Origin: Pseudogemmobacter humi
Lineage (GTDB): Bacteria > Pseudomonadota > Alphaproteobacteria > Rhodobacterales > Rhodobacteraceae
Length of the DNA stretch: 45,666 bases
Direction of reading: 5' to 3'
Assembly: GCF_900609055.1 (NCBI RefSeq)
Contig: NZ_UXAW01000036.1
Location: 1 to 45,666, forward strand
This document shows, one piece after another, positions 2,109 through 25,183 of the stretch. The position numbers were made by a program, and so were the translations under genes. Positions within the stretch are counted from its first letter, which is position 1; each line of letters starts with the position of its first letter. The notes beneath the pieces are model-generated. The model saw only the letters and a list, made by a program, of their open reading frames with translations, was not told the DNA's origin and made no database searches.

Positions 2109-2136
2109 AATGTATCTTAAAACAGGTAGAGTTAAA
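2109..2136 (-). promoter_or_regulatory. putative leftward promoter for the small-gene operon
   Basis: Read on the minus strand, TTTAAC (2136-2131) and TACATT (2114-2109) are separated by 16 bases, a plausible -35/-10 pair. It points at the zinc-ribbon gene and lies beside the XRE operator palindrome, so the divergent repressor could control it. Similarity to consensus is only moderate. Confidence 0.3.
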
Positions 2137-2144
2137 AGCGTCGG

Positions 2145-2163
2145 TGCACAATAGCATTGTGCA
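2145..2163. promoter_or_regulatory. palindromic operator overlapping the XRE start codon
   Basis: A perfect inverted repeat, TGCACAAT-AGC-ATTGTGCA, whose last base is the A of the ATG of the XRE regulator. No Shine-Dalgarno sequence fits between the palindrome and the start. The length and symmetry suit a dimeric helix-turn-helix repressor, so autoregulation is the obvious reading. That is inferred from position, not shown. Confidence 0.6.
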
Positions 2164-2632: not shown

Positions 2633-2759
2633 TCATGCCGACGAAGCGCGGCGCTGCGTCCGAGCAGTCGCTTTCGGTGACACCACATAGAAAGGGAAAA
2701 TCCGAGCGGCGAGCACTGATCGCCTCATCGATCTGACCGGTTAAGGCGCTGATCAGCCT
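2601..2759 (-). pseudogene. possible gene remnant in the tRNA-proximal spacer
   Basis: This frame is open for 52 codons from just after a TGA at 2762 to a TGA at 2601. It encodes a protein-like stretch containing DEAISARRSDFPFLCGV and ending in MIAGDKRSLTV. It has no start codon before the late ATG at 2636. The same frame beyond the TGA (AEFSGRIALVRNSQT) also reads like protein. This is consistent with a decayed gene but not decisive. No family is recognised. Confidence 0.25.
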
Positions 2760-2838
2760 TCAAGTCTGGGAGTTCCGCACCAAGGCGATCCGTCCAGAAA
2801 ACTCAGCCAGAAGAGCTCACGCCCCCGCCCGAGGAGCC

Positions 2839-2857
2839 GCCTTTTGGAACAAAAGGC
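2839..2857. terminator. hairpin downstream of tRNA-Pro
   Basis: A perfect stem GCCTTTTG / CAAAAGGC with a three-base loop, about 30 bases past the tRNA 3' end on the minus strand. There is no clear T-tract, so it could aid tRNA 3' processing or mark a junction rather than act as an intrinsic terminator. Confidence 0.35.
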
Positions 2858-2887
2858 AAGACTTTGTGAAACTTCACAGCGGGAAAT

Positions 2888-2964
2888 TGGTCGGAGCGAG
2901 AGGATTCGAACCTCCGACCCCCTGCTCCCGAAGCAGGTGCGCTACCAGGCTGCGCTACGCTCCG
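2888..2964 (-). tRNA. tRNA-Pro (anticodon CGG)
   Basis: A 77-base cloverleaf on the minus strand. The acceptor stem CGGAGCG pairs with CGCTCCG, followed by discriminator A and an encoded CCA (2890-2888). The D arm reads GCGCAGCCTGGTAGCGC. The anticodon stem CCTGC/GCAGG closes the loop TTCGGGA, giving CGG. The T arm contains GGTTCGAATCC. It decodes CCG proline codons, which are common in this GC-rich genome. Its 3' end faces the accessory-looking genes at 1-2887, the usual geometry for island integration at a tRNA gene. Confidence 0.97.
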
Positions 2965-3017
2965 ACCGTGGGCGCGGGATTAGACGGTTGCCGCAGAAGA
3001 TGCAAGGGGGAACGCAA

Positions 3018-3045
3018 GCGCGCGGGAGAAAGCTCTCCCGCGCGC
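3018..3045 (-). terminator. terminator hairpin after leuB
   Basis: A perfect 12-bp inverted repeat (GCGCGCGGGAGA / TCTCCCGCGCGC) with a four-base loop, starting 8 bases past the leuB stop. It is very GC-rich and lacks a good T-tract. It sits between leuB and tRNA-Pro, both read leftward. Confidence 0.65.
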
Positions 3046-3052
3046 GGCGAAA

Positions 3053-4159
3053 TCAGAGGCTTGCGTCCAGGGCGGCGAGGATGGCGTCGCCCATCTGGCC
3101 GGTCGTGACCGGGGTGCCGCCCTCGGGGCCCATCAGATCGGCGGTGCGCACGCCGTCGGCCAGCACCTTCTCGACCGCTTTCTCGACACGTGTCGCCTCG
3201 TCGCCGAGGTCGAAGGAATAGCGCAGCGCCATCGCGAACGACAGGATGCAGGCGATCGGGTTGGCCTTGCCTTGCCCGGCGATGTCGGGGGCCGAGCCGT
3301 GAACGGGCTCATAGAGTGCCTTCGGACGGCCGTTCGCCATCGGCGCGCCGAGCGAGGCCGAGGGCAGCATGCCGAGCGAGCCGGTCAGCATCGCCGCCGC
3401 ATCCGACAGCAGGTCGCCGAACAGGTTGTCGGTCACGATCACATCGAACTGTTTCGGCCAGCGGCAAAGCTGCATCGCGCCGGCGTCGGCATACATATGC
3501 GACAGCTGAACATCCGGGTAATCGCGGTCGTGAACTTCCTGCACCACCTCGCGCCAGAGGATGCCGGATTCCATCACATTGGCCTTCTCCATCGAGCAGA
3601 CCTTGTTCGAGCGGCGCCGCGCCAGTTCAAACGCCGATTTCGCCACGCGGGCGATCTCGGATTCGGTGTAACGCTGGGTGTTGATGCCGACGCGCTCGTT
3701 GCCCTCTTTGAAGATGCCACGCGGCTCGCCGAAATAGACGCCGCTGGTCAGCTCACGCACGATCACGATATCCAGCCCGGCCACCACCTCGCGCTTGAGC
3801 GAGGAGAAATCCGCCAGCGCGTCGAAGCACTGCGCCGGGCGCAGGTTCGAGAACAGGTCCATCTCCTTGCGCAGGCGCAGCAGGCCGCGCTCGGGCTTCA
3901 CGCTGAAATCCAGCTTGTCGTATTTCGGGCCGCCGACCGCGCCGAGCAGAACGGCGTCCACCGCCTGCGCCTTCGCCATGGTGGCGTCGGTCAGCGGTGT
4001 GCCGTGGGCGTCATAAGCGCAGCCGCCGACCAGATCCTCGGAGACATCGAAGGCAATGCCGCGCTTGTCGCCCATCCAGGCGATGACTTTCCTGACCTCG
4101 GCCATGACTTCGGGGCCGATGCCGTCGCCGGCGAGGATCAGAATGGAGGGGTTGGCCAT
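3053..4159 (-). CDS. leuB: 3-isopropylmalate dehydrogenase
   Basis: A 368-residue cytosolic enzyme that oxidatively decarboxylates 3-isopropylmalate with NAD+ in leucine synthesis. The N-terminus [14 protein letters not shown] is the family signature. Further typical segments are [15 protein letters not shown]-like [25 protein letters not shown] with catalytic Arg/Tyr, [14 protein letters not shown], and the NAD-binding [21 protein letters not shown] 4159 is used because the family starts just before this strand; an in-frame extension of 20 residues is Pro/Arg-rich and unlike the family. The other leu genes are not in the window. A strong hairpin follows the stop. Confidence 0.97.
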
Positions 4160-4228: not shown

Positions 4229-7980
<3,752 letters not shown>

Positions 7981-8074: not shown

Positions 8075-9175
8075 TCATTGGATCACGAATTCCGCGTGCA
8101 GCGCCCCGGCGGCGTGGATGCTTTTCAGGATGTCGATCATGTCATGCGGCTGCACGCCAAGCGCGTTCAGCCCCGCCACCACCTCGGACAGATTTGTGCC
8201 GCCCGCCACCTCGGCAAGGCCACTGCCTTCGGTCGCGATCTCGGCCGAGCTGCGCGGCACGACGACGGTTTCGCCCTCGGAAAACGGGTTGGGCTGCACC
8301 ACGACGGGACGCTCCTCGACCCTGAGCGTCAGATTGCCCTGGGCCACCGCCACGCGGCTGATGCGGACATCGGCGCCGATCACGATGGTGCCCGAACGCT
8401 GATCCACCACCACCCGGGCGCGGGTTTCCGGATCGACCCGCAGGGATTCGATCCTGGCGATAGCATGGGCGGGAGAGCCGCCGCCGATCCGGCTCAGGTC
8501 CAGCGCGATTGTGCCACCGTCCAGCATCGCGGCCGACCTTCCGCCGAATTCCCGGTTGATCGCCTGTTCGATCCGCGCCGCCGTGGTGAAATCCGCCGTT
8601 TTCAACGCCAGCCGCAGCACCGACACCTGGGTGAAATCAAAGGTGACCTCACGCTCTACCCGCGCGCCCGAGGGAATGGTGCCCGCTGTCGGCACGCCCT
8701 GGACCACCCGTGCGGCCTTGCCCTCGGCCGAGATGCCGCCAGCGATGATCGTTCCCTGCGCAACCGCATAGATCTGCCCGTCGGCGCCGTTCAGGGGCGT
8801 CATCACCAGCGTGCCGCCGAGCAAGCTTTTGGCATCGCCGATGGCCGAGACGGTGACATCGATCCGCGCGCCCGCACGGGCGAAGGGAGGCAGCGTCGCA
8901 GTGACGAAAACCGCGGCCACGTTTTTCGGCCTGTAATCCTCGCCCGCGACGTTGACACCCAGCCGTTCCAGCAGGTTGGCCATGATCTCTTCGGTGAAAG
9001 GCGAATTGCGAATCCCGTCGCCGGTGCCGTTCAGCCCCACCACAAGGCCATAGCCGACCAGGTCATTGCCACGCACGCCGTCGATTTCGACAAGATCCTT
9101 GATGCGCACCGGCTCGGCCCCGACCGGAGGACCGGCAAGCCAGAGGAAGGCCAGCGCCAGAAAAAGGCGGATCAC
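8075..9175 (-). CDS. flgI: flagellar P-ring protein FlgI
   Basis: 366 residues with a Sec signal peptide (hydrophobic LFLALAFLWLAG, cleavage after ...PVGA) followed by the family opening EPVRIKDLVEIDGVRGNDLVGYGLVVGLNGTGD. The length is normal for FlgI, which forms the periplasmic ring bushing of the rod. The start is a GTG at 9175 that overlaps the flgL stop (GTGA). It is the last flagellar gene in a flgE-flgK-flgL-flgI run. Confidence 0.96.
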   Translation of the reverse strand: MIRLFLALAFLWLAGPPVGAEPVRIKDLVEIDGVRGNDLVGYGLVVGLNGTGDGIRNSPFTEEIMANLLERLGVNVAGEDYRPKNVAAVFVTATLPPFARAGARIDVTVSAIGDAKSLLGGTLVMTPLNGADGQIYAVAQGTIIAGGISAEGKAARVVQGVPTAGTIPSGARVEREVTFDFTQVSVLRLALKTADFTTAARIEQAINREFGGRSAAMLDGGTIALDLSRIGGGSPAHAIARIESLRVDPETRARVVVDQRSGTIVIGADVRISRVAVAQGNLTLRVEERPVVVQPNPFSEGETVVVPRSSAEIATEGSGLAEVAGGTNLSEVVAGLNALGVQPHDMIDILKSIHAAGALHAEFVIQ

Positions 9176-10167
9176 CGCAGATACTCCGTCAGGCTGAGGC
9201 GCGAGAGCCGTGCGGTTATGGTGTAGAAAGCATCCAGCCGGCTTTCCAGATCCTCAAGCCGCACGGTGGCCTCGTAGGGATCGGCCTCGATCAGCGCGGT
9301 TCGCGCAAGCGTAAGCGCAGACTTCTCAGCCGAATTACGGGCCTGGGCGCGGGAAAGCTGCTCTTCGGTGGTGCCGATGCGGCCGGCAAGAACCGCCCGC
9401 GCATCCGAGGACGACTGAAGATCGACCCCCGCGCCCAAGGCAAAGGCCGCCCGTGCCGCGTGATCGCCTGCAAGCAACCCGCGGTCGAGCAGCGCCACTT
9501 TGGCAAAACCGGCGAGGGTTTCCCGGATCGCGGGATCAAGCGCGGTGAAGGGCAGGGATGCCGTCTCGCCTGCCGCGACCGCGATCCCCCCCACGGGCGC
9601 ACCGCCCGTATAAAGCGCCTCATAGCCGGCGCCAGCGAACCAGGAATCGACGGCCGCGGAAATATCTTCGGGCGTCGCTACTCCGGCGATTGCGGTTTCC
9701 AGCGCGCCGAGAATGCTTTGCGCATCGGGCAGCGGTGCAACGGCGGAATTTACCCCGCCGAAGACCGGACGTTCAGAAACCCGGGTGTTGAGCGCCGCGA
9801 TGACGGTCTCGAAATCCCGCATCCCGCTGGATGTCACCGCAGCCAGTTGCGGGGCGCTGAGACCGCTGGCCGTGCTCAGAAGATTGCTCCCAAGCTGCTC
9901 TGCCGCCTGCGAGATCATCGCCAGTGCGCTTTGCATCGCGCTGGCGGTCAGCGTCAGTTCGCTGGTCGCGGCCGTATAGCCGGAGATCCGGGCCAGCGCA
10001 TGATCGGTCGCGGCCAGCCGGCCGAAATCGCCCCGCAGCGTGGCGCCGGTATCGGCCTGTTTGCCGGTAGCCATCTCCTGCGTGGTCGCCTGAAGTTTCG
10101 CCCGCAGATCGGCGCCCTGACGCACCAGCGCCGGGGTCAGGAACGGGTTCGAGCTGATACGGTCCAT
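9172..10167 (-). CDS. flgL: flagellar hook-filament junction protein FlgL
   Basis: 331 residues with flagellin-like helical ends: the N-terminal segment SNPFLTPALVRQGADLRAKLQATTQEMATGKQADTG and C-terminal coiled-coil LEDLESRLDAFYTITARLSRLSLTEYLR. The middle is variable and Ala-rich, as in alphaproteobacterial FlgL. Position directly after flgK (one-base gap) and before flgI supports the call over flagellin. It joins hook to filament outside the cell and is exported by the flagellar type III system, so there is no signal peptide. Confidence 0.88.
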   Translation of the reverse strand: MDRISSNPFLTPALVRQGADLRAKLQATTQEMATGKQADTGATLRGDFGRLAATDHALARISGYTAATSELTLTASAMQSALAMISQAAEQLGSNLLSTASGLSAPQLAAVTSSGMRDFETVIAALNTRVSERPVFGGVNSAVAPLPDAQSILGALETAIAGVATPEDISAAVDSWFAGAGYEALYTGGAPVGGIAVAAGETASLPFTALDPAIRETLAGFAKVALLDRGLLAGDHAARAAFALGAGVDLQSSSDARAVLAGRIGTTEEQLSRAQARNSAEKSALTLARTALIEADPYEATVRLEDLESRLDAFYTITARLSRLSLTEYLR

Positions 10168-10168
10168 C

Positions 10169-11623
10169 TTACAATCCCAGCAATGTCCTGATCATTTCAT
10201 CCACGGCCTGAATGACTTTCGCATTGGCCGCAAAATTCTTCTCGATTACCAGAAGCGCCTGCATTTCCTCATCGATATTCACGCCCGCAGCGGATTCCAG
10301 ATCGCCGAGCGCGGCATAACGGGCTGAGGTGAACGACTGTTCTGTATCCGCAGAAATCCGGTGCGAGGACACACGCGAAAGGATATCCGCAGCCAGCCCG
10401 GGCAGAGTGCGGCTGCCCGGCATCAGTGCCGAGCCGGTGGAGCGCGACTGGTTCAGCGCGCCGGACAATGCGGTCAGAAGCGTATTGTTGCCCGCAGGAC
10501 CTGGCCCCGTCGCACCGATGCCGTCGCGCAGCCTGGAGAGGTCGCCCCCCTGCAACGGGTCGGGTGCAGCATTCAGCCGGATGCGCGAGGCAAGGCCGGT
10601 TTCCAGCGCCGGATCGAAGGCAAGCCCGCCATCGGTAAACAGGCCGGGTTCGCCGGTCGCAAGGCTCGGGTCCACAGCCGGATCACCGAACCGCTCGATC
10701 AGATCGCGCGCCATGGTGTCGAGCAGCGCCTGGCCCTCGACCGCCAGCCCGTCGCGCACCGCAAAAAGCGCACCAAGCTCGCCACCCTGGATCAGACTGG
10801 CCGGACCCGTGGTCGCCATCGGCTTGCCGTTGATCGTCAGTCCGTAGAGACCGCCGCTGCCGATGGTCATTTCCGGCACGATAGTATGCACCGCGGTGAA
10901 GCCGATCTCGACCGCCGAACTGTCCAGCAAAACCGCGCCGCCCGTAGTGACCAGCGCGATCTGATTGCCCTCGCGCGGGATTTCCTTCAGCGGAACGATC
11001 GCGGCGATACCGTCGATGATCTGCTGACGCTGGTCCATCAGCGCCGCCGTTTCACGCCCCGAGAAACTGTAGGAAGCGATGACGGAATTCAGCTCCTGCA
11101 CCTGTTTCAGCCCGGTGTTCAGCCTTTCGACCGCGCTTGCGATGTTCTGATCGGCCCGCAGTCGCTCGGCCTGGATCGCATCGCTGGCAAAGTTCAGCCC
11201 CTCGGCCAAAGCCCGCGCGGCGGTGACCGCCGCACTCAGCCGCGCCTCGGATTCCGGGCGGCTGGCGGCTTCGAGCAGGGCCTGGTCCAGCGCGTGAACG
11301 CGCGAGACCAGCGAGCCCGCAGCCTCGGTGTCGCCAAGGATATTTTCCAGCCGGGACAAAAAACCCGCCCGGACCGCACTGTCGCCGGCCGCGGCCTGGG
11401 CGCTTCGGCGGTCGTTGATCAGATAAAGGTCGCTGTGGCGCGTGATGCCCACCACCCGGACGCCCTGGCCCTGGCCGCCCAGGCTGAGCGCAGAGAGCGA
11501 AACCGAGCGTCTGGCATAGCCCGGGGTGGTGGCATTGGCCACGTTTGACGAGATCGCCTCGGCCTGCCGCGAGGTCGCGGAAATGCCGGTCAGCGCGCTG
11601 TTGAGGGCCGAGGTGATGCTCAT
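10169..11623 (-). CDS. flgK: flagellar hook-associated protein FlgK
   Basis: 484 residues. The N-terminus ALNSALTGISATSRQAEAISSNVANATTPGYARR is the FlgK/FlgE-type rod-hook signature, with the typical SNVANATTPGYARR. The C-terminus SAAGVNIDEEMQALLVIEKNFAANAKVIQAVDEMIRTLLGL is the matching terminal helix with the VNIDEE box specific to FlgK. It caps the hook at the hook-filament junction and is exported without a signal peptide. It lies six bases from flgE and one from flgL. Confidence 0.96.
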   Translation of the reverse strand: MSITSALNSALTGISATSRQAEAISSNVANATTPGYARRSVSLSALSLGGQGQGVRVVGITRHSDLYLINDRRSAQAAAGDSAVRAGFLSRLENILGDTEAAGSLVSRVHALDQALLEAASRPESEARLSAAVTAARALAEGLNFASDAIQAERLRADQNIASAVERLNTGLKQVQELNSVIASYSFSGRETAALMDQRQQIIDGIAAIVPLKEIPREGNQIALVTTGGAVLLDSSAVEIGFTAVHTIVPEMTIGSGGLYGLTINGKPMATTGPASLIQGGELGALFAVRDGLAVEGQALLDTMARDLIERFGDPAVDPSLATGEPGLFTDGGLAFDPALETGLASRIRLNAAPDPLQGGDLSRLRDGIGATGPGPAGNNTLLTALSGALNQSRSTGSALMPGSRTLPGLAADILSRVSSHRISADTEQSFTSARYAALGDLESAAGVNIDEEMQALLVIEKNFAANAKVIQAVDEMIRTLLGL

Positions 11624-11629
11624 GGCGGT

Positions 11630-12955
11630 TTACCGTTTGATGTTGGTGGTTTCCTGAAGCATCTCGTCCACGGTCTGGATGACCTTGGCGTTCGAGGAAT
11701 AGGCCCGCTGGGTCTGGATCAGCGAGGTCAGTTCCGCCGCCACATCGGTGGTGGAGCCTTCGCGCGCATAGCCCTCGATCGAGCCGGTCGGCCCGTCGCC
11801 CGCATCCCAGAGGAAGAACGAGCCCGACTGCGGCGAGACCTGGTAGGTCTGGTTGTGCAGCGAGACGAGGCCGTTCGGGTTGGGCACATCCACCAGCGGG
11901 ATCTGATACAGCACACGGGTGAAACCGGTGTCGTAGGTGGCGGTGATATAGCCGTTGGCGTTCACCTCGACCGTGGTCAGATTGCCCACCGGCGAGCCGT
12001 CTTTGGTGATCTGCACCGGAGCGAATTCGTCCGACAACTGGGTCAGCCCGTTGGGATCGCCGACCCGGCCGATCGCCACGTTCATCGGCCCGCCCGCGAC
12101 CATCAGCGGCAGAGTGCCGGTGGCGGAATCATAGGCGGGCCAGGGCGGGGTGGCGCTCGCGGCGGTTACCGTCGCCAGCGTTCCGCCCGCCGCGCGGGAA
12201 TCGTCAAAGGTCAGGACATATTCGCCGATCACCGCATTGTTGCTGGCCGAATCGCGGATCACCATCGTCCAGGTGTTGGAATTGGGCGAGCCCGCGGCCG
12301 GGACCGTGGGCGTGAAGCTGAAATCGAGCGATTCCGAGGTGCCGAGATTGCCGAAATACTCCACCGCATAGGGCAGGGCATCGCCGCCCGCACTGGGCTC
12401 GGTCGCGGTGGCGGGCAGGTTCACGCCCAGAGTCATCTGCGTGGTCGGATCGCCCGAGGTCTGGTTGGCATTGATCACCACCGGAACGAGGCCGGTGATC
12501 GTGTCGCGCGGAAAGACCGGAATCGTGCCGTCCGATGTGGCCGGCCAGCCCATCAGCACAAGGCCGGAATCGGTTTTCAGCACCCCGTTCGCATCGGTGC
12601 GGAACGAGCCGGTCGTGGTCATCAGAAGGGCACGATCACCGGCGCCGGCGCCAAGCATGACCTCGGGCAGCACCGGCAGCATGCCGCGCCCCGATACCGC
12701 AAGATCGAGCGGATGCGAGGTGCCGACAAGGCCGCCCCGCTCTTCGATCAGGCGGACGGTCGAGGCCCGCACGCCGCCCGCGGAATAGACGCCCGAGCCG
12801 CGCGAATTGGTGATGACCATGCTGGAAAATTCCGCATGAGCCCGTTTGTAACCATAAGTGCCTGAGTTCGCGATATTGTCCGAGATGGTGGCCAGCCGGG
12901 TGGCATTGGCGTTCAGCCCGGCCACACCCGCGGCAAGCGCAGAGGAAATCGTCAT
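11630..12955 (-). CDS. flgE: flagellar hook protein FlgE
   Basis: 441 residues. The N-terminal SALAAGVAGLNANATRLATISDNIANSGTYGYKRA is the hook/rod motif and the C-terminus ELTSLIQTQRAYSSNAKVIQTVDEMLQETTNIKR is the matching helix. The middle is a Thr/Gly/Pro-rich beta region. I start at ATG 12955, with AGAAAGG about ten bases upstream; a GTG three codons earlier would overlap the ribosome binding site. It forms the universal-joint hook. It is the first gene of the run ending with flgI, with its own 83-base leader after motB. Confidence 0.94.
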   Translation of the reverse strand: MTISSALAAGVAGLNANATRLATISDNIANSGTYGYKRAHAEFSSMVITNSRGSGVYSAGGVRASTVRLIEERGGLVGTSHPLDLAVSGRGMLPVLPEVMLGAGAGDRALLMTTTGSFRTDANGVLKTDSGLVLMGWPATSDGTIPVFPRDTITGLVPVVINANQTSGDPTTQMTLGVNLPATATEPSAGGDALPYAVEYFGNLGTSESLDFSFTPTVPAAGSPNSNTWTMVIRDSASNNAVIGEYVLTFDDSRAAGGTLATVTAASATPPWPAYDSATGTLPLMVAGGPMNVAIGRVGDPNGLTQLSDEFAPVQITKDGSPVGNLTTVEVNANGYITATYDTGFTRVLYQIPLVDVPNPNGLVSLHNQTYQVSPQSGSFFLWDAGDGPTGSIEGYAREGSTTDVAAELTSLIQTQRAYSSNAKVIQTVDEMLQETTNIKR

Positions 12956-12971
12956 CAATCGCACCTTTCTG

Positions 12972-12990
12972 CTGCATGACTTTGATGCAG
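12972..12990. promoter_or_regulatory. short palindrome upstream of flgE
   Basis: CTGCAT / ATGCAG arms around seven bases, 17 bases before the flgE start. It may be an operator or a leader hairpin near the ribosome binding site. I see no clear flagellar sigma-28 or sigma-54 promoter. Confidence 0.3.
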
Positions 12991-13038
12991 ACTGAAGGCA
13001 GGATCCTAAATTTCCGCTAATTCCTCAGATTTTTCTCA

Positions 13039-13845
13039 TCACCTGTCGCGGCGCAAAAGCACGATCTCGATCCGGTTGTTGCGCTTTGCCGCCGGATCGG
13101 CCACGGCGGGCTTGCGGTCGGCAAAACCGCCGATCCGCTGAAACCGCGGCGCCTGGATACCAGCCTCTTCCAGCAGTTGCCGCATGGCGCGGGCGCGGTC
13201 CGACGAAAGCTCCCACGACGGATTATCGGCCAGGGTCACCGGGTAAGTCTGGACAAAACCGTTCACGGCGATCTTGTTGGTGGCCAGATTCAGCGCCTCG
13301 GCCAGCACCGATGCCAGTGCAAGAGTGGCCGGCGTCGGATCGGCGCTCTGGCCCTGGAACAACACCGCATCGTCAAGATCGAACAATTCGATCACCAGAC
13401 CCTCGTCGGTGACGCGGGTCACGACATGGCGCAGAAGCTGCTCCATCGTCCGGCTTTCTCCGCCCTGGGCGAACAGCTCTTTCTCGACGGTTTTCAGAAT
13501 CTCGGCCTCGGCGCTGGCCTCACCGGAGCCGCCGCGACTATCCGAGATTCCGCCGGTTCCGTTCTGCGCGCTCTGTTCCTCGGTGAACATGGATTCCCCC
13601 CCCAGCGAATCCTCTCCCCCGCCCGAGACCCGGTTGATCGGGATCGTCGGATTGAAATAATCCGACAACCCTTTGCGCTGCTTTTCCGTCGTCGCATTCA
13701 GCAGCCACATCAACAGAAAGAACGCCATCATGGCGGTCACGAAATCGGCATAAGCCACTTTCCAGGCGCCGCCGTGATGACCGCCGCCCGAGACCTTTTT
13801 CTTCCGTTTGATGATGACCGGCTGAGCATTGCCTTGCCCGGCCAT
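13039..13845 (-). CDS. motB: flagellar motor stator protein MotB
   Basis: 268 residues. The N-terminal basic tail IIKRKKK precedes one membrane helix (VAYADFVTAMMAFFLLMWLLNAT), with the proton-carrying Asp34 in YADF. The plug and linker follow (residues about 55-120). The C-terminal OmpA-type peptidoglycan-binding domain has NPSWELSSDRARAMRQLL and KRNNRIEIVLLR. ATG 13845 is preceded by AAAGGGG; the longer frame begins at a GTG just upstream of that ribosome binding site. MotB anchors the stator to peptidoglycan. motA is not adjacent, so the partner is elsewhere. Confidence 0.95.
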   Translation of the reverse strand: MAGQGNAQPVIIKRKKKVSGGGHHGGAWKVAYADFVTAMMAFFLLMWLLNATTEKQRKGLSDYFNPTIPINRVSGGGEDSLGGESMFTEEQSAQNGTGGISDSRGGSGEASAEAEILKTVEKELFAQGGESRTMEQLLRHVVTRVTDEGLVIELFDLDDAVLFQGQSADPTPATLALASVLAEALNLATNKIAVNGFVQTYPVTLADNPSWELSSDRARAMRQLLEEAGIQAPRFQRIGGFADRKPAVADPAAKRNNRIEIVLLRRDR

Positions 13846-13955
13846 TTCAACACCCCTTTCACTCACCCGGAGCCAGTCTGGCAGGGCGCGGTGAACAGCC
13901 GCTTAAAGGCTTGGGTTTTAAGGAAAAGGCGCGAAACCGCCGTAATTCGCGGCGC

Positions 13956-14651: not shown

Positions 14652-15246
14652 GCGCTGCCCCCCGCTCCGCCCTGATATGGGCGATCAGCGCCTGAACATA
14701 AGCGCGGGTGCTCTCAATGGACAGGGTTTCCACGATATGATCGGCGCGGGCGCGTTTCTCTCGGTCGGGCATCTGACGCGACAGAATCAGCGCAAGCTGC
14801 GTCTCGGTCATGCCGGGGCGGGCGAGGACGCGGGCGCGCTGGATCCCGGGCGGCGCGGTCACCAGCAGGGTGGCGTCGCATTCGGCCTCGGTCCCTTTCT
14901 CGAACAAGAGCGGGATATCGAGGACCAGGATGTCGGAGCTGGCCGAGGCCAGAAAGGCCGCCCGATCCTTTGCCACCAGCGGATGGACAAGGGATTCCAG
15001 CACCCCCAGCCGGGACGGATCGATGGCCAGCGCGGCCTTGAGTGCTTCACGTGAAACACTGCCATCCGCAACGGCAGCCGGGAAATGCGGCGCCAGCAGA
15101 TCCGCCGCCGCGCCGCCGGGGGCATAAAGCCGGTGCACAGCCGCATCGGCATCCCAGACCGGGATCCCCTCAGCCACGAACAGCGCGGCGGTGGTCGATT
15201 TTCCCATCCCGACCGAGCCGGTAAGCCCAAGACGAAACGCCGTCAT
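14644..15246 (-). CDS. coaE: dephospho-CoA kinase
   Basis: 200 residues. [13 protein letters not shown] (7-18) is the P-loop, followed by the family features [24 protein letters not shown] and the [12 protein letters not shown]-type lid region. It phosphorylates the 3'-OH of dephospho-CoA in the last step of CoA synthesis. The start overlaps the aroE stop as ATGA. The codons for GSVSREAL (about residues 60-70) also form a near-exact parS palindrome, so this stretch is under two constraints. Confidence 0.96.
15043..15058. promoter_or_regulatory. parS-like ParB site inside coaE
   Basis: TGCTTCACGTGAAACA differs by one base from the canonical palindrome TGTTTCACGTGAAACA. It lies in coaE, 1.7 kb left of the candidate origin, and parB is in the same window. 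One mismatch usually still allows ParB binding; here that is inferred. Confidence 0.8.
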
Positions 15247-16082
15247 GCGGAGAGCACCGCCTGACGGGTTTCCTCATCCACCACCGGACGTTTGCCGAAC
15301 CAGCGCTCGAACCCCGGCACCGCCTGGTGCAGCAGCATCCCGAGCCCGTCGACCACGGTGCAGCCGCGATCCTCGGCCTCGATCAGAAGCTGGGTCTTGA
15401 GCGGCGCATAGACGATATCGGTCACGAGGCAGCGCTGATCCAGGCGGTCAAGGTTGATCACCAGATCCGGCTTGCCGGTCATGCCGAGCGAGGTCGTGTT
15501 CACCAGCGTCGCGCAGCCTTCGATCATCTGGCCGACATGGGTCCAGTCGTGCACCACCACCTTGGCGCCGAAATCCGAGCGCATCCCTTCGGCCCGCGGG
15601 CGGGTGCGGTTGACGATGCGGATCTCGGGCGCGCCGACCTCGACCAGCGCGGCGACAACCGCACGCGCCGCACCGCCGGCGCCCAGCACCGCGGCGGGCC
15701 CGGCGGTCGGATCCCAATGCGGCGCGTTCTGGCGCAGATTGGCGATGAAGCCCGAACCGTCGGTGTTGTCGGCATGGATCTTGCCGTCCTTGCGGAAGAT
15801 CAGCGTGTTCGCCGCCCCGATCAGCGCGGCGCGGTCGGTGATGATATCGGCAATCGACAGGATCGCCTCTTTATGCGGCAGGGTGATGTTCACCCCGACA
15901 AATCCCATCTGGGGCAGAGTGCGCAGCACGTGCTCCAGATCCTGCGGCGCCACATCCATCGGAATATAATGCCCCGGCAGGCCATAGCGTTTCAGCCAGT
16001 ATCCATGCAGCGCCGGGCTTCGGCTGTGGGCGATCGGATGGCCAATCACCCCGGCAAGCGGAATTTTCGCAAGTTCGGTCAT
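15243..16082 (-). CDS. aroE: shikimate dehydrogenase
   Basis: 279 residues. The substrate-binding N-domain has [19 protein letters not shown], with the Ser pair for shikimate, and [11 protein letters not shown] with the catalytic Lys. NTDGSGF supplies the Asp partner. The Rossmann domain has [15 protein letters not shown] and NRTRPRAE, the usual NADP preference loop. It reduces 3-dehydroshikimate in aromatic amino-acid synthesis. It overlaps both neighbours by four bases (maf stop and coaE start), so the block is tightly coupled. Confidence 0.96.
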
Positions 16083-16702
16083 GCCGGGATGATCCCCCGA
16101 AGCGAGAGCCAGGACAAGAGCGGCAAAAGCGGCATGCCGAGAATTGTGAAATGGTCGCCCTGAAGCGCGGAAAACAGCCGGACGCCCTCTTCCTCCAGCC
16201 GGTATCCGCCGACCGAATGGCGGATCTTTTCCCAGTTTCGCGGGATATAGCTGTCGAGATAAGCCTCCGAGAAGTCGCGCATCGTCAGCCGCGCCTCGGA
16301 GACATGACGCCAGACCGGCTTGCCCTCTTCATAAACCACCGCGGCCGACAAGAGCCGGTGTGTCTTGCCCCGCAGGGCCAGCAGATTTTCCCGCGCCTCC
16401 TCCGGGGTTTCGGGCTTGGCGAAGATCCTGCGGTTCAACTCCAGGATCTGATCGCAGCCGATCACCAGCGCATCAGGGCGCTTCTCCGCGATCTTGCGCG
16501 CTTTCACCTCGGCCAGGGTATCGGCCATGTCGCGGGGCGAGGCGCCTTCGGCCTCCAGCGCGCGGCGAATCGATTCCTCATCAACCCGCGCGGGCAGGGA
16601 CTCAAAGCTCAGACCGGCGGCCTCCAGCATGGCGATCCGCGTCGCCGAGGTCGAAGCGAGCACAAGGGGCGGCAAAAGGCGGGCAGCTTTCTCGGGGGTC
16701 AT
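16079..16702 (-). CDS. maf: Maf-like nucleotide pyrophosphatase
   Basis: 207 residues. The family opening [19 protein letters not shown] is at about residues 13-31, then [10 protein letters not shown] and the central Lys/Asp motif [12 protein letters not shown]. Maf proteins hydrolyse non-canonical or modified NTPs. It starts the leftward block maf-aroE-coaE-dnaQ. A consensus DnaA box ends two bases upstream of its ATG, so DnaA binding could affect its expression. The equivalent Caulobacter gene is also the second one left of the origin. Confidence 0.93.
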
Positions 16703-16704
16703 TC

Positions 16705-16713
16705 TGTGGAAAA
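16705..16713 (-). promoter_or_regulatory. DnaA box (TTTTCCACA)
   Basis: An exact match to TTWTNCACA on the minus strand, directly before the maf ATG and at the left edge of the candidate origin. Confidence 0.65.
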
Positions 16714-16952
16714 TCCGGTTTCGTTCCTGCGGTTCCGGTCAGGATGAACCGGGGCAGAATGGGGAAGAACATCTGAACCGGCGCCTGGCGCGAAAGCCGC
16801 TCCGATCTTATCCCAAGGACCATGACATTTTCCACGGCTTTGGGACAGAGCAGGTTATCATCCCCCTGTCCAAAACAATCCCGATCAAAGTTGCCCATAA
16901 TAATGCTTTGATTTACAATGATTATTATCCGTTTTCAGATTTTCTTCTCTCT

Positions 16953-16972
16953 TTACCCACAGCCTTTCCACA
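16953..16972 (+). promoter_or_regulatory. tandem DnaA-box-like pair
   Basis: TTACCCACA and CTTTCCACA, same orientation, starts 11 bases apart (one helical turn), each one mismatch from TTWTNCACA. They lie just right of the AT-rich tract, where a DnaA oligomer would be expected to nucleate unwinding. Confidence 0.5.
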
Positions 16973-17110
16973 ACCGGCTGACCCCGGGAAAACCCATGGG
17001 GAAAAGCCGAAATCCCGATATCCCCTGCCCCAACATCATCATCATCTTTTCTCTTTCTTTATGAATATAAGATGAAGGCTGACCCGTTTTCCGCCTGACC
17101 CCCGGCGGCG

Positions 17111-17139
17111 TTGACTTTGAGATGCAAAGCCCCTATCTG
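17111..17139 (+). promoter_or_regulatory. putative promoter of the rho operon
   Basis: TTGACT (17111-17116) and TATCTG (17134-17139) with 17-base spacing, about 90 bases before the rho start. The -35 is 5/6 and the -10 weak, normal for this group. It borders the candidate origin, so origin activity and rho transcription may interact. Confidence 0.5.
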
Positions 17140-17232
17140 CCTTGCCAGCAAAGCCGTCCGGCCGATGCGCCTCCCGATTTCAAGCCAGATCCGGCCCGCG
17201 TGAGTGTCACGCGCCGTCCGCAGGTATTCTCC

Positions 17233-18501
17233 ATGACCGAACGTCTGAATCTCTCCGATCTCAAAGCCAAGACCCCGGCCGATCTTCTGGCCATGGCCGA
17301 GGAATGGGAGATCGAGAACGCCCCTTCGATGCGCAAGGGCGAGATGATGTTCCAGATCCTCAAGGAACATGCCGAAGAGGGCTACGAGATCGGCGGCGAT
17401 GGCGTGCTCGAAGTGCTCCAGGACGGTTTCGGCTTCCTGCGCAGCCCCGAGGCGAACTATCTGCCAGGCCCCGACGATATCTATGTCTCGCCCGAGATGA
17501 TCCGGCAGTTCAGCCTGCGCACCGGCGATTCCATCGAGGGCGTGATCAAGGCTCCGCTGGAAACCGAGCGCTATTTCAGCCTGGTGAAAGCGACGAAGAT
17601 CAATTTCGACGATCCCGAACGCGCCAAGCACAAGGTGCATTTCGACAACCTGACGCCGCTTTACCCTGATGAGCGGCTGAAGATGGAGATCGAGGATCCG
17701 ACGATCCGCGATCGCTCGGCCCGGATCATCGATTTGGTGGCGCCGATCGGCAAAGGCCAGCGCGCGCTGATCGTGGCGCCGCCGCGTACCGGTAAAACGG
17801 TGCTGCTTCAGAACATCGCCCGTTCGGTCGCGGCGAACCACCCGGAATGCTATCTGATCGTTCTGCTGATCGACGAGCGGCCCGAGGAAGTCACCGACAT
17901 GCAGCGCAGCGTGAAGGGCGAGGTCGTGTCCTCGACCTTCGACGAACCGGCGACCCGGCACGTCGCGGTGGCAGAGATGGTGATCGAAAAGGCCAAGCGG
18001 CTGGTTGAACACAAGCGCGACGTGGTGATCCTGCTTGATTCGATCACCCGTCTCGGCCGGGCCTTCAACACCGTGGTGCCGTCCTCGGGCAAGGTGCTGA
18101 CCGGCGGCGTCGATGCCAACGCGCTGCAACGCCCGAAACGGTTCTTTGGGGCTGCGCGGAACATCGAAGAGGGCGGCTCGCTGACCATCATCGCCACCGC
18201 GCTGATCGACACCGGCTCGCGGATGGATGAGGTGATCTTCGAGGAGTTCAAGGGCACCGGCAACTCCGAGATCGTGCTCGACCGCAAGGTCGCCGACAAG
18301 CGGGTGTTCCCGGCGATGGACATCCTCAAATCCGGCACGAGGAAAGAGGATCTTCTGGTCGAGAAATCCGACCTGTCGAAGACCTATGTTCTGCGTCGGA
18401 TCCTGAACCCGATGGGCACCACCGATGCAATCGAGTTCCTGCTTGGCAAGCTGAAGCAGACCAAGACCAATGCGGAATTCTTCGATTCCATGAACACCTG
18501 A
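17233..18501 (+). CDS. rho: transcription termination factor Rho
   Basis: 422 residues, the usual alphaproteobacterial length. N-terminal helical domain [28 protein letters not shown], then the OSB RNA-binding fold ([24 protein letters not shown]). The ATPase core has P-loop [14 protein letters not shown], Walker [18 protein letters not shown], and the Q/R-loop region ([20 protein letters not shown]). ATG 17233 is chosen because the family begins here; the in-frame extension upstream is Pro-rich and contains the promoter. It is the first gene of the rightward block, 22 bases before mnmE. Confidence 0.97.
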
Positions 18502-19806: not shown

Positions 19807-21681
19807 ATGTTTCACGTGAAACATTTCGATGTGATTGTGGTGGGCGGTGGCCATGCCGGGGCAGAGGCCGCAGCAGCCTCGGCCCGGATGGGCGCGATGA
19901 CGGCGCTGGTCACCATGCGGGCCGCGACGATTGGTATCATGTCCTGCAATCCGGCGATAGGTGGTCTAGGCAAGGGTCATCTGGTGCGCGAAGTTGATGC
20001 GATGGATGGGATCATGGGCCGCGCCGGGGATATGGCGGGGATCCAGTATCGTCTGCTGAACCGGCGCAAGGGGCCGGCGGTGCAGGGGCCGCGCACTCAG
20101 GCGGACCGTCGACTTTATCGCGATGCGGTGCAGGGATTGCTTGCGGCCGAGCCCCAGCTCACGATCCTGGAAGGAGAGGCGGCGGCTTTGCTCCTCGACA
20201 GCGGTCGTATCGCGGGCATCGCACTGGCCGACGGGTCAGAGATCCACGCGCAGGCGGTGGTTCTGACCACCGGAACCTTTCTGAACGGGCTTATCCATGT
20301 CGGCGATAAGAGCCTCCCGGGTGGCCGGGTTGGCGACAATGCCTCGGTGCGGCTGGCACAGCAGATCCGCGATCTCGGGCTGACCACCGGACGGCTGAAA
20401 ACCGGCACGCCACCGCGGCTTGATGGACGGACCATCGACTGGAACCGGCTGGAGATGCAGCCGGCGGACGAAGATCCTGTGGTTCTGTCCTTCCTTCACC
20501 ACAAGCCCCTGGTGCGGCAGATTTCCTGTGGGATCACCCATACCTCGGCCGCGACGCATGAGATCATCCGCGACAACCTGTCACGCAGCGCGATGTATGG
20601 CGGGCATATCGACGGCGTAGGGCCGCGCTATTGCCCCTCCATCGAGGATAAGGTGGTCCGGTTCGCCGACAAGGACAGCCATCAGGTCTTCCTTGAGCCC
20701 GAAGGGCTGGACGATCCCACTGTCTATCCGAACGGCATATCGACCTCGCTACCCGCCGAGGTGCAGGAAGCCTACGTCCGCACCATTGCCGGACTTGAGC
20801 AGGCGGTGATCACCCAGCCCGGATATGCCATAGAATATGATTACCTCGACCCGCGGGGCCTGCGCGCGACGCTGGAAAGCCGGGCGGTCCAGGGTCTGTA
20901 TCTTGCGGGTCAGATCAACGGCACCACAGGATATGAGGAGGCTGCCGCTCAGGGCATGGTCGCCGGGCTGAATGCCGCGGCGACCATGCGTGACGCGGAT
21001 CCCGTCAGTTTCTCGCGCAGCGACAGCTATATCGGGGTGATGATCGACGATCTGATCACCCGCGGGGTGACCGAGCCCTACCGGATGTTCACCTCGCGCG
21101 CGGAATACCGGCTCTCGCTAAGGGCCGATAACGCCGACCAGCGGCTGACGCCAAAGGGCATTGCCCTCGGTTGTGTGCGTGAAGAGCGGATCCGCGCGTT
21201 CGGCGAGAAGACAAAGGCGCTGGAAAGCGTTACCAGCCTGTTGAAATCGCAGAAGTTCACTCCAAAGGAGCTGGCGCAGGCCGGAATCCTGGTCAGCCAG
21301 GATGGGGCGCGCCGCTCGGCCTGGGATCTGCTGGCGATGCCGGATTACGATCCGGCGGTGATTGATTCGCTCGTGCCGGCGCTGGTGGATCATCCGGACA
21401 CCGTGCGCCGTCAGGCCGAAATAGAGGCACTTTATGCGCAATATGCCGATCGTCAGGCCGCCGATGCCGAGGATCTGCGCAAGCACGAGGCGATGCTGAT
21501 TCCGGCCGATTTCGATTACGCCGCGCTGTCTGGTCTGTCGGCCGAACTGTCCGGCAAGCTCAGCCGGGTCCGGCCCGAGAATATCCAGCGCGCGCGGCAG
21601 ATCGAGGGGATGACTCCGGCCGCAGTGATGCTGCTGATCGCGGCTTTGCGCAAACCGCAATCGCGTAAACTGGCGGGCTGA
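19807..21681 (+). CDS. mnmG: tRNA uridine 5-carboxymethylaminomethyl modification enzyme MnmG
   Basis: 624 residues. FAD dinucleotide-binding [21 protein letters not shown] at about residues 9-29. Family motifs are [45 protein letters not shown], and PGRVGDN-like [10 protein letters not shown]. The C-terminal domain binds MnmE and tRNA. I start at ATG 19807; a GTG two codons earlier overlaps the mnmE stop. The first residues, MFHVKH, are not conserved in the family generally. They are what the parS sequence encodes in this frame. Confidence 0.97.
19808..19823. promoter_or_regulatory. parS site at the mnmG start
   Basis: TGTTTCACGTGAAACA, an exact canonical parS palindrome. It begins at the T of the mnmG ATG and specifies residues MFHVKH. 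It is 2.4 kb left of parA. Confidence 0.93.
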
Positions 21682-21684: not shown

Positions 21685-22320
21685 GTGGATCAGGCGCTTT
21701 GGACGGAACTGCGCGCGAGCGGGGCCGCGCTGGAAAAGCTGCGTCTTTTCGCGGCTTTGGCCGAGAAATGGACCCGGAGCATCAACCTGATCTCGCGCGC
21801 GACGGTGGCGGATCTCTGGTCGCGACATATCGAGGATTCTGCGCGGATTCTGACGCTGGCTCCTCCCGCGCCCGCGATCTGGGCCGATTTTGGTGCGGGT
21901 GGCGGATTTCCCGGCCTTGTCGTTGCGGTGTTGCTTCAGGATCGCGGGCTTCGGACCCGGATTGTTCTGGTGGAATCGGATCAGCGCAAGGCGACGTTTT
22001 TGCGCGAGGCGGCGCGACAGCTTGGCCTTCCGACCGTAATCTGCGCCGAACGCGCCGAGGCGATTACGCCGCTTGGGGCAGATGTAGTGTCGGCCCGGGC
22101 ATTAGCCCCCCTAAATATGCTTTGCGAGATTATGGAACGCCATGGAACGCCCGACGGCATGGCGTTGTTTCCCAAGGGCGAAACCTGGCAGGAAGAAGTG
22201 GATGTGGCGCGGAAAAACTGGTTCTTCGATCTGGAGGCGGCGTGCGATCCGGGCCATAAAGGGTCAGCCATCCTGAAACTGAGGAATCTGCGCCGTGCCA
22301 GCCGCGATGCCCTTGCCTGA
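21685..22320 (+). CDS. rsmG: 16S rRNA (guanine527-N7)-methyltransferase RsmG
   Basis: 211 residues, GTG start at 21685 three bases after the mnmG stop. Core features of the class I fold: [19 protein letters not shown] (family signature), [18 protein letters not shown] (SAM-binding loop), [22 protein letters not shown] and [21 protein letters not shown]. It methylates G527 in the 530 loop of 16S rRNA; loss gives low-level streptomycin resistance in other bacteria. Its end overlaps parA by 26 bases. Confidence 0.96.
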
Positions 22321-23113
22321 TGTTCCGCCGTTGCCCGCCCATGTGATCGCCATCGCGAATCAGAAAGGCGGTGTGGGCAAGACCACGACCGCCATCAACC
22401 TTGCGGCCGCGCTGGCCGAGCGGAACTTACGGGTTTTGCTGGTGGATCTGGATCCGCAGGGCAATGCCTCGACCGGGCTCGGGGTGGCGACGGGTGACCG
22501 CAAGCTGACGACCTATGATCTGATCCTGTCCGAGACGCATCCGGAGACGATCATCCGCAAGACCTCGGTGCCCAATCTCTGGATCAGCCCGGCGAATTCG
22601 GATCTGGCCTCGGCCGATATCGACCTGGTGTCGAATGAGAAGCGCAGTTTTCTGCTGCATGACGCGCTGCGCCACCCCGAAATCGACGCCATGGCCTTCG
22701 ATGTGGTGCTGATCGACTGCCCGCCTTCGCTCTCGCTGCTGACGGTGAACGCGCTGGTGGCGGCGCATGCGGTCCTGGTGCCGCTTCAGGCCGAGTTTTT
22801 TGCGCTGGAAGGGCTGTCGCAACTGCTGTTGACGGTGCGGGATGTGCGGCGCTCGGCCAATCCGAACCTGCGGATCGAGGGTGTGTTGCTGACGATGTAT
22901 GACGGGCGCAACAATCTGGCGCAGCAGGTCGAGACCGATGCGCGGGAAAACCTTGGCGATATGGTGTTTCGCACCATCATTCCGCGCAATGTGCGGCTGT
23001 CCGAGGCGCCCTCGCATGCGATGCCGGTGACGGAATACGATTCGACCTCGCGCGGGGCCGAGGCCTATCGTGCGCTGGCGGAAGAAATTGCCGCGAAACT
23101 GCGGCGTTCGTAA
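22295..23113 (+). CDS. parA: chromosome partitioning ATPase ParA
   Basis: 272 residues with the deviant Walker A of the ParA/MinD class (KGGVGKTT, 24-31), [14 protein letters not shown] (A' region) and [17 protein letters not shown] (Walker B). The GTG at 22295 has GAGGA about a dozen bases upstream and overlaps rsmG; ATG at 22307 is the alternative. The first 15 residues are Pro/Ala-rich. ParA forms the dynamic ATP-dependent nucleoid gradient that moves ParB-parS complexes. It is 19 bases before parB. Confidence 0.96.
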
Positions 23114-23132
23114 CGAAAACAAGAGGCGGAGC

Positions 23133-24014
23133 ATGGAACGCAAAGGGCTTGGGCGGGGTTTGTCGGCGCTGATGTCGGATGTGAATCTGCGCCCGGAAAG
23201 CGAAGGACCACGGCGGGCGGATTCCAGGCTGCCGGTGGCGAAGCTGCGCGCCAACCCTTTGCAGCCGCGTAAGGATTTCGATCAGGCGGGGCTTGAGGCG
23301 CTGGCCGATTCTCTGCGGCAGAAGGGTGTGATCCAGCCCCTTGTGGTGCGACCCAAAGGCGATTTCTATGAAATCGTGGCGGGTGAGCGGCGCTGGCGGG
23401 CGGCGCAGATCGCGCAGCTGCACGAGGTTCCGGTGGTGATCCGCGATCTCGACGATACCGAAGTGCTGGAAGTCGCGATCATCGAGAACATCCAGCGTGA
23501 GGATCTGAACGCGATCGAAGAGGCGCTGGGACTGCGGCAGCTGATCGATCGCTTCGGCCATACCCAGGAGAAGATCGCCGAGGCGCTGTCGAAAAGCCGC
23601 AGCCATGTGGCCAATCTGCTGCGTCTGCTGAACTTGCCTGATAAGGTGCAGCTGATGGTGCGGGAGGGCGCGCTCTCGGCCGGCCATGCGCGGGCGTTGA
23701 TCAACGCGCCGGATTCGCTGTCTCTGGCGCGGTCGGTGGCGGCGCGGGGTCTTTCGGTGCGTGAGACCGAAAAACTGGTGAAAGAGGCCGGCGATCCGAA
23801 GCCGGTCAGGGAAGAGCGGACCTCCAGGGGGGCGGAAAAGGACGCCGATACCCGCGCGCTGGAAGGCGATCTGACCGCGCAACTCGGGATGTCGGTGCGA
23901 ATCGATCATCGCGATCCCGGCGGAAGTCTGGTGATCAGCTACCGAGACCTCGAAGAGCTGGATCTGTTGTGCCAGCTGCTGTCCTCGGGGCCGACGGGCC
24001 TGGCGCGGGATTAA
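23133..24014 (+). CDS. parB: chromosome partitioning protein ParB (CTPase)
   Basis: 293 residues. It opens with MERKGLGRGLSALMSD, the ParA-stimulating tail. The CTP-binding domain has NPLQPRKDFD, GVIQPLVVRP, GERRWRA (84-90) and ENIQREDLNAIEEA. The parS-reading helix-turn-helix is TQEKIAEALSKSRSHVANLLRLL. A C-terminal dimerisation domain ends at LEELDLLCQLL. ATG 23133 follows AAGAGGCGGA. It binds the TGTTTCACGTGAAACA sites and spreads as a CTP clamp. Its TAA shares TTAA with the opposing hemW stop. Confidence 0.97.
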   Translation: MERKGLGRGLSALMSDVNLRPESEGPRRADSRLPVAKLRANPLQPRKDFDQAGLEALADSLRQKGVIQPLVVRPKGDFYEIVAGERRWRAAQIAQLHEVPVVIRDLDDTEVLEVAIIENIQREDLNAIEEALGLRQLIDRFGHTQEKIAEALSKSRSHVANLLRLLNLPDKVQLMVREGALSAGHARALINAPDSLSLARSVAARGLSVRETEKLVKEAGDPKPVREERTSRGAEKDADTRALEGDLTAQLGMSVRIDHRDPGGSLVISYRDLEELDLLCQLLSSGPTGLARD

Positions 24015-25183
24015 GCGCCCGAAAGTTCCAGCACCAGGCGGTTGAGCAGCAACCGGCCCGCTGGCGTTGCCGCGAGCCGGTCGTTTTCGATGCGAATCAT
24101 CCCGGATTCGGTCAGTTCCCGCATCGCTTTCGGGGGGGCGCCGTTCAGGGCGGTATAGCGGGCAAGCGACATGCCTTCGGTCAGCCGCATCGACATCATC
24201 ATATATTCAACGGCCTGAGAGGCGCGGGGAATCACCTCGCGCGGCAGTTCGCCCTTGCCCTGGCGGACCGCTTCCAACCAGAGTTCGGGGGAGCGATGGG
24301 TGCTGGTGGCATATCTTATGCCATCGAGCGTCAGCCGACCGTGCGCCCCGGGACCGATGCCGAGGTAATCGCCCATTCGCCAATAGACGAGGTTGTGCCG
24401 TGATTCGGCGCCTTCACGCGCGTAATTGGAGACTTCATAATCGTGAAGCCCATATTCGGCGCAGATTCCCGCGGTCAGTTCATACATATCGGCGGCCAGG
24501 TCCTCGTCCGGCAGCCCTGCCAGCTTTCCGGCGTCGAAAAGTCGGGCGAAGGCAGTGCCCTCTTCAATGGTCAGTTGATAAAGCGAGATGTGATCCGGCC
24601 CGCGGGTGAGCACTGATCGCAACTCTTCCTCCCAGGCGGGCAGGTCCTGATCCTGACGGGCATAGATCAGATCGCAAGACGTGCGCTCAAAGATGCTGCG
24701 GGCCAGATCCAGCGCGGCAAGCCCCTCGGCGGCGCTGTGCTGGCGACCCAGGCGTCGCAGGTCCAGATCGTTCAGCGCCTGAAGGCCCAGCGAAACCCGG
24801 TTGACCCCCGCTTGGCGATAGCCGGTGAAACGTGCGGCCTCGACCGAAGTCGGGTTGGCCTCCAGCGTTACCTCCAGATCATTGGCGAGCCGCCAGTGCC
24901 GCGCGATCCGGTCGAGGATCGCGCCGGTCACCGCGGGGTCCATCAGCGAAGGTGTGCCGCCGCCAAAGAACACCGAGCGCAGGATCCGACCCCCGGTTTC
25001 AGCGGCGGCGCGGTCCAGCTCGGCCAGATAGGCCCGCCGCCATTCATCCTGGTCGATGCGCTGGCGCACATGGCTGTTGAAATCGCAATAGGGGCATTTC
25101 GCCTTGCAGAACGGCCAGTGGATGTAGAGGGCGAAGCCGCCCTCTTGCCAGTCCTCGGGCGCGGAGTGTTTCACGTGAAACAT
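24011..25183 (-). CDS. hemW: radical-SAM heme chaperone HemW
   Basis: 390 residues. The radical SAM cluster motif is CKAKCPYCDFNSH (CxxxCxYC plus DF, characteristic of HemN/HemW). Further motifs are FFGGGTPSLM and EANPTSVEAARF, and the C-terminal HemN domain follows. The CxxxCxYC spacing and lack of the longer HemN N-terminus favour the chaperone HemW over coproporphyrinogen dehydrogenase. The start codon and MFHVKH N-terminus lie in a parS palindrome that also contains the rdgB stop; the genes overlap by 13 bases. It is convergent with parB, sharing a TTAA. Confidence 0.93.
   Translation of the reverse strand: MFHVKHSAPEDWQEGGFALYIHWPFCKAKCPYCDFNSHVRQRIDQDEWRRAYLAELDRAAAETGGRILRSVFFGGGTPSLMDPAVTGAILDRIARHWRLANDLEVTLEANPTSVEAARFTGYRQAGVNRVSLGLQALNDLDLRRLGRQHSAAEGLAALDLARSIFERTSCDLIYARQDQDLPAWEEELRSVLTRGPDHISLYQLTIEEGTAFARLFDAGKLAGLPDEDLAADMYELTAGICAEYGLHDYEVSNYAREGAESRHNLVYWRMGDYLGIGPGAHGRLTLDGIRYATSTHRSPELWLEAVRQGKGELPREVIPRASQAVEYMMMSMRLTEGMSLARYTALNGAPPKAMRELTESGMIRIENDRLAATPAGRLLLNRLVLELSGA
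25167..25182. promoter_or_regulatory. parS site at the rdgB-hemW junction
   Basis: An exact TGTTTCACGTGAAACA. On the minus strand it encodes the last residues and stop of RdgB (CFT, then TGA) and, in another frame, codons 2-6 of HemW following its ATG. It is about 8.2 kb right of the candidate origin. Confidence 0.93.

Follow-up and report, generated by a model that had tools for sequence, protein, structure and literature searches.

In Caulobacter and Rickettsia, the available text of an earlier report places the chromosomal origin between hemE and a COG1806 gene (PMC1914354), and the available text of a second study describes parAB as close to the origin in nearly all genomes, the Rhodobacterales being among the groups with exceptions (PMC8116508). 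For the Rhodobacteraceae, the accessible sections of a survey report Ori-Finder predictions of oriC for 101 closed genomes (Kopejtka et al. 2019, PMC6699656) and that the origin stayed ambiguous after Ori-Finder and curation in eight strains; within the main text of that survey, as far as it was accessible, only parAB is named as flanking genes and no conserved core module is described.

The window analyzed here, i.e., the whole stretch of 45,666 nucleotides (G000:C64:1-45666), is part of a 4.47-Mb draft genome of Pseudogemmobacter humi in 143 contigs. We consider it highly likely, judging from the sequence comparisons presented below, that the main chromosome has its DnaA-dependent origin in the gap between maf and rho in this window, at the ancestral alphaproteobacterial position, where it remained once the genes in between had been lost or relocated. 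The gap and the genes that frame it are as follows.

16703..17232, unstranded: maf-rho intergenic region (530 bp), candidate chromosome origin
16079..16702, minus strand: maf, left flank (NCBIfam Maf models; PRK02478 at 218.5 bits, below the model cut-off of 269)
17233..18501, plus strand: rho, right flank (TIGR00767, 687.5 bits)
22295..23113, plus strand: parA-like gene (best NCBIfam model ParA_partition at 107.5 bits, below the cut-off of 180)
23070..24014, plus strand: parB (TIGR00180, 172.8 bits)

The gene order reads dnaQ-coaE-aroE-maf (leftward), the 530-bp gap, and rho-mnmE-mnmG-rsmG-parA-parB (rightward), so that the flip in gene polarity described in the original prediction holds for maf, aroE, coaE and dnaQ on one side and for rho, mnmE, mnmG, rsmG, parA and parB on the other, while the three genes directly past parB are leftward again. 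We take this outer gene order to resemble that around the Caulobacter Cori. The GC content of the gap is 53%, compared to 58–72% (most 60–70%) in 1-kb stretches of the window. The original prediction called the maf-rho gap the only large one; in the open reading frame list of the window, however, a second stretch devoid of reading frames (none of at least 100 amino acids) spans 2262-2843, left of a tRNA gene, and Rfam and tRNA scans of the window returned a tRNA-Pro near 2888-2964 and nothing else. Further out on the left arm, after dnaQ, window positions 9172-13866 encode a flagellin-C domain protein, an FlgK-like protein, another Flg rod/hook protein and a MotB-like gene.

The closest described counterpart of this locus is the Cori of Caulobacter crescentus in the hemE/CC0001 gap, with which it shares, as far as the accessible portions of the Caulobacter reports go, a set of DnaA boxes, AT-rich DNA and parS at a distance of no more than 8 kb, and perhaps an IHF site, for which the gap has one consensus match (PMC1914354, PMC4468827). 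It differs from Cori in that hemE and a CC0001-type gene are missing from its borders, hemJ is gone as well, and CtrA sites are lacking. By a strict definition of a Caulobacter-type Cori the gap would fall outside, with neither the hemE and kinase-pyrophosphorylase (DUF299/COG1806) borders nor CtrA sites found. The original prediction had noted the missing border genes, and the genome-wide searches agreed: hemE is located elsewhere (G000:C101), and PF03618, for the kinase-pyrophosphorylase, had no match anywhere in the genome. The third gene of the cluster, hemJ, is also missing at the gap, and the only, distant, PF03653 member in this genome lies at G000:C110:34966-35373; across the genus, 12 of 13 genomes lack the origin-linked hemJ and carry distant PF03653 members elsewhere only. 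The absence of the border genes is thus true of this genome, yet it is not peculiar to it and is widespread in the family. Among 36 family genomes (neighbors counted by eye, with a few genomes incomplete) the kinase-pyrophosphorylase family was found in 3, hemE adjoining rho in 2 and hemJ adjoining rho in 19, and the corresponding numbers for the 13 genus genomes were 0, 0 and 1. Since the Caulobacter and Rickettsia origins are placed between hemE and COG1806, the gap in the window appears to be the same place without its border genes. The order in which genes around the origin would have been lost is something that we infer from these comparisons.

We then characterized the gap itself, where the following DnaA-like boxes were located.

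16705..16713, minus strand: box TTTTCCACA, perfect to TTWTCCACA; the plus strand reads TGTGGATAA in four relatives
16808..16816, plus strand: weak box TTATCCCAA, two mismatches; TTATCC in 10 of 11 aligned genus gaps
16828..16836, plus strand: box TTTTCCACG; a comparable box in roughly half of the gaps in the genus alignment
16867..16875, minus strand: weak box TTTTGGACA, one mismatch to TTWTNCACA (consensus scan)
16953..16961, plus strand: box TTACCCACA, first of a tandem pair (consensus scan and alignment)
16964..16972, plus strand: box CTTTCCACA, second tandem box; TCCACA kept in 9 of 11 gaps of the genus alignment
16997..17005, minus strand: box TTTTCCCCA (consensus scan)
17018..17026, plus strand: degenerate box ATATCCCCT, three mismatches; a TTATCC-type box here in most relatives

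The count first put forward, one perfect and four one-mismatch boxes, was reproduced with TTWTCCACA (perfect at 16705 on the minus strand; one mismatch at 16828, 16953, 16964 and 16997). Using TTWTNCACA with at most one mismatch, the gap contains six boxes against a mean of 0.73 in dinucleotide shuffles, none of 500 shuffles reaching six; the gap therefore displays the above-chance box cluster expected of an oriC, and no other 530-bp stretch of the window is as dense in boxes. Likewise, when 800 kb of the same-genus genome G007 were sampled, at least five boxes occurred in one of 2960 windows of 530 bp, namely the maf-rho gap. With the strict consensus TTATCCACA, the gap contained two boxes at one mismatch and none that was perfect. 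This consensus was discarded as a test because it proved uninformative (14 exact sites genome-wide, none in the window); at position 17018, the exact TTATCCACA is found in G006 only. Gaps across the family contain between 0 and 9 boxes, and 10 of the 51 have at most two. Several box positions are kept in the genus alignment, in line with the expectation that the boxes of an origin be conserved in close relatives. This alignment comprises 11 of 13 genomes, G004 and G011 having been left out because their gaps are longer. The G004 locus (L144) carries runs of N at 1886-3348 and 4494-5787, one of them over much of the maf-rho gap, so that no continuous sequence is available for its 1.9-kb gap.

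Two AT-rich tracts accompany the boxes, the first of which contains the inverted pair that the original prediction had put forward together with the boxes.

16885..16950, unstranded: first AT-rich tract with the ATAATAAT/ATTATTAT pair, up to 75% AT
16901..16913, minus strand: predicted IHF site, the one match in the gap to WATCAANNNNTTR
17031..17070, unstranded: second AT-rich tract, about 65–75% AT, T-rich in relatives too
17035..17046, plus strand: ATC x4 trinucleotide repeat, DnaA-trio-like on the other strand

With tracts of up to 75% AT in a gap of 53% GC, an AT-rich region lies beside the boxes, as in an oriC. The ATAATAAT/ATTATTAT pair is indeed present (16897-16904 and 16921-16928) within a 72–75% AT tract; however, it is not conserved across the aligned genus gaps, and we rejected it as a key element. 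We take WATCAANNNNTTR to be the IHF consensus. No TTAA-N7-TTAA at up to one mismatch, and no TTAA whatsoever, was found in the gap, nor was any GANTC (CcrM) site, and control by CtrA and CcrM was rejected since the sites of both are lacking there.

Beyond the gap, we searched the whole draft genome for the parS palindrome TGTTTCACGTGAAACA with up to two mismatches, using the reversed pattern as a control. The search retrieved three sites, all flanking the maf-rho gap, while the control retrieved none.

15043..15058, unstranded: parS, one mismatch (genome scan)
19808..19823, unstranded: parS, exact (genome scan)
25167..25182, unstranded: parS, exact (genome scan)

Together with the parA-like and parB genes these sites provide the parS/parAB neighborhood expected of an oriC. 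In four related genomes (G007, G012, G015 and G021) parS sites are located within ~10 kb of maf-rho, the exception being a two-mismatch site 25 kb off in G015, and none was found near dnaA. The criteria of the Rhodobacteraceae survey, as given in its accessible sections (GC disparity minimum, local GC minimum, DnaA boxes and parAB nearby), also point to the gap (PMC6699656).

To compare the gap across relatives we collected 51 loci (rho identity of at least 84% and a maf-rho gap of 300–2100 bp, others being dropped; G004 and G005 are each present twice) and built a DNA profile from 25 of the 36 loci outside the genus, those in which a simple pattern anchored the repeat. The profile revealed a module of a box, a GC-rich spacer, the ATC repeat and a T-rich tract.

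16969..17079, plus strand: core module, candidate unwinding element (DNA profile, E 1e-13, 49.8 bits)

Although built without the genus, the profile matches the window at 16969-17079 as well as all 13 genus genomes examined, whereas the best match in 780 kb of G007 background has an E of 0.34 and none of 1000 shuffles of the gap scores above 9.9 bits. All 11 untrained loci were matched (E 0.0011 or better), and in a leave-one-out series 24 of 25 loci were recovered at E < 0.01, the remaining one at 0.023. This amends the earlier reading of the gap: its conserved core is the 16969-17079 module and not the ATAATAAT pair. A sequence-only covariance model gave a single match at E ≤ 1 in the genome of the window, at 16986-17078 (E 4.2e-13), and matches in 124 of 149 family genomes, each of another genus; the other 25, some of them incomplete, had none under strict filters. 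For one of these (G014), looser limits yielded a sole match at E 0.18, 150 bp before rho.

Matches were also sought outside the family. In 24 genomes of other families, compared by eye, the best genome-wide match fell at a hemE/rho-type locus in 11 (G036, G037, G042, G044, G047, G050, G051, G054, G055, G056 and G059; E 1.4e-4 to 0.39, some of them weak), be it inside the kinase-pyrophosphorylase/hemE gap, immediately ahead of hemE or rho, or adjacent to the kinase-pyrophosphorylase gene. Three had no match (G039, G046 and G049), and in nine the best match lay elsewhere or in a context that could not be judged, several with many chance matches; G053 (E 0.68) was not placed. Weak and numerous matches in some small genomes of the class (e.g., G043, G052 and G057) were not counted as support. 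An earlier profile, applied to nine fetched loci in which the kinase-pyrophosphorylase gene or hemE is retained, matched the corresponding gap at E ≤ 0.002 in six (G016, G027, G036, G044, G047 and G050; unmatched: G029, G039 and G049). Among the titles and abstract openings listed for Pseudogemmobacter origins (10 of 2,985 papers), the hemE/maf/rho context (2 of 2), the DnaA-trio with Caulobacter (12 of 16) and the Cori unwinding element (12 of 25), none concerns such a module, which is weak evidence for its novelty.

A conserved sequence ahead of rho could also belong to gene expression: the gap might be a promoter and leader for rho and maf only, with DnaA as a transcription regulator and the true origin elsewhere. 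The genus does show, right before rho, a conserved leader and the following promoter-like element, which favor that explanation.

17111..17139, plus strand: promoter-like TTGACT-17 nt-TATCTG, taken as the rho promoter; TTGACTT in 11 of 11 aligned genus gaps

The −10 part of this element is less constant than TTGACTT in the genus alignment, and a consensus promoter scan did not list it. Yet the module does not keep its distance from rho. Of 126 module matches, 117 were upstream of rho on the same strand, 7 were on another contig than rho and 2 were in genomes without a rho match; among the 117, the distance to rho was 118–204 bp in 23, 569–791 bp in 91 and larger in 3, and the 569–791 bp range fits an intervening hemJ. 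Because the distance varies with hemJ in between, the module is not simply a rho leader. Moreover, a profile built from 18 long-gap loci alone still found 16971-17078, the best match stands before hemE in several genomes of other families, and both parS and the skew reported below point to the gap. We therefore regard a purely regulatory gap as very unlikely. The stretch at 17111-17232, with its promoter-like element and conserved GGCCGTCCG-type leader ahead of rho, is an observation in its own right and possibly reflects rho autoregulation.

Returning to the module as a candidate unwinding element, its architecture resembles the basal unwinding system (BUS), which the available text of PMC8287927 describes: a box, a short GC-rich spacer, a trinucleotide run and an AT tract, in one orientation. 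It differs in that the repeat of the window reads 3'-TAG-5' and the BUS consensus 3'-GAT-5'; in relatives the trio-like run consists of CTAC followed by ATC repeats. We applied the published BUS rule (a DnaA box with at most two mismatches, a spacer of 0–16 bp and at least three (.A.) trios) to the first 540 bp of each of 49 family gaps, i.e., the 51 minus two with N. On the rho strand the rule picked out 32 of 49 gaps vs 16% of shuffles, and on the other strand 12 of 49 vs 10%. The gap of the window yielded no strict match on either strand and passed when three box mismatches were allowed (17018). A strict BUS assignment was rejected since the box by the ATC repeat has three mismatches, and the window is not filed as BUS because only that relaxation lets it pass. 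We tentatively suggest, at somewhat less than even confidence, that 16969-17079 may be an ancestral alphaproteobacterial unwinding core, BUS-like with a divergent trio run, that was kept as the kinase-pyrophosphorylase gene, hemE and hemJ were lost or moved.

An origin should also be visible in the strand composition of the chromosome, and GC skew was sampled in related genomes. For G007, 20-kb stretches of the 3.43-Mb chromosome were used, and 36 of 40 samples were counted, the other four being near the antipode or less than 20 kb from rho; all 17 on the left of maf-rho were negative and 15 of the 19 on the right were positive. In G012, of the same genus, the skew was negative in 8 of 10 samples on the left and positive in 8 of 8 on the right (18 of 20 counted). 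The skew-minimum check proposed with the original prediction thus came out, by samples in these two same-genus chromosomes, as a sign switch at maf-rho, and the cumulative G-C minimum of the window, a local value for the window only, falls at 17287; the GC-skew minimum expected of an oriC is hence seen in the sampled G007 and G012 and locally in the window, and not in G021. In G015, of another genus, coarse sampling gave the expected sign in 8 of 9 stretches on each side, with one positive stretch 135 kb from rho on the expected-negative side. In finer sampling of the last 300 kb ahead of maf-rho, 10 of 15 stretches were negative and 5 positive; despite these five contrary stretches we no longer count G015 as a skew exception and regard it as mostly regular. 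The stretch of G015 that is richest in boxes (8 boxes) falls within the maf-rho interval.

The more distant G021, of yet another genus, has a strong skew that turns near 2.74–2.80 Mb, whereas maf-rho is at 2.91 Mb, 110–170 kb away. This would suit an origin that has moved in some lineages, the maf-rho box cluster being a relic or one of two origins. In the region concerned (G021:C3, 2.74–2.91 Mb; loci L216-L219 and L236-L244) the skew turns away from maf-rho, and parS and the module remain at maf-rho. No window of more than four boxes was found in the 120 kb around the turn, and two genomes of the window's own genus, G007 and G012, switch at maf-rho. Given the parS and module at maf-rho and the lack of a dense box window at the turn, a recent inversion fits G021 better, and we hold a moved origin to be highly improbable. 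An origin near dnaA, as in many other bacteria, is hardly credible: in both G007 and G012 dnaA does lie on the maf side, at a distance of ~82 kb, but no parS accompanies it, the module matches the maf-rho gap alone, and the two samples off the gap between dnaA and rho are negative in both genomes (small in G012, at −0.029 and −0.004, where two samples past dnaA are slightly positive), which places the switch at maf-rho rather than at dnaA.

The proposal of a chromosomal origin between maf and rho is therefore supported by the box cluster, parS, the skew of G007 and G012, and the module. At such an origin, DnaA-ATP would bind the dispersed, mostly weak boxes and IHF may bend the AT tract; DnaA would then extend from the boxes beside the ATC repeat onto one strand of 17031-17070 and open the tract, helicase loading would give rise to two forks in opposite directions, and ParB on the flanking parS would segregate the copies.

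The gap is very probably a chromosomal origin that belongs to a known kind, and its gene neighborhood, which lacks the usual border genes, is common across the family. The analysis locates the origin in a draft assembly on the basis of sequence alone, and it shows hemE to be an unreliable landmark for origins in the family. The conserved module is a candidate DNA-opening site in alphaproteobacterial origins, and as a marker it could help in genomes whose origin is ambiguous after Ori-Finder and curation; if it is indeed an ancestral unwinding core, it would be a single-copy sequence marker of the origin across much of the class.
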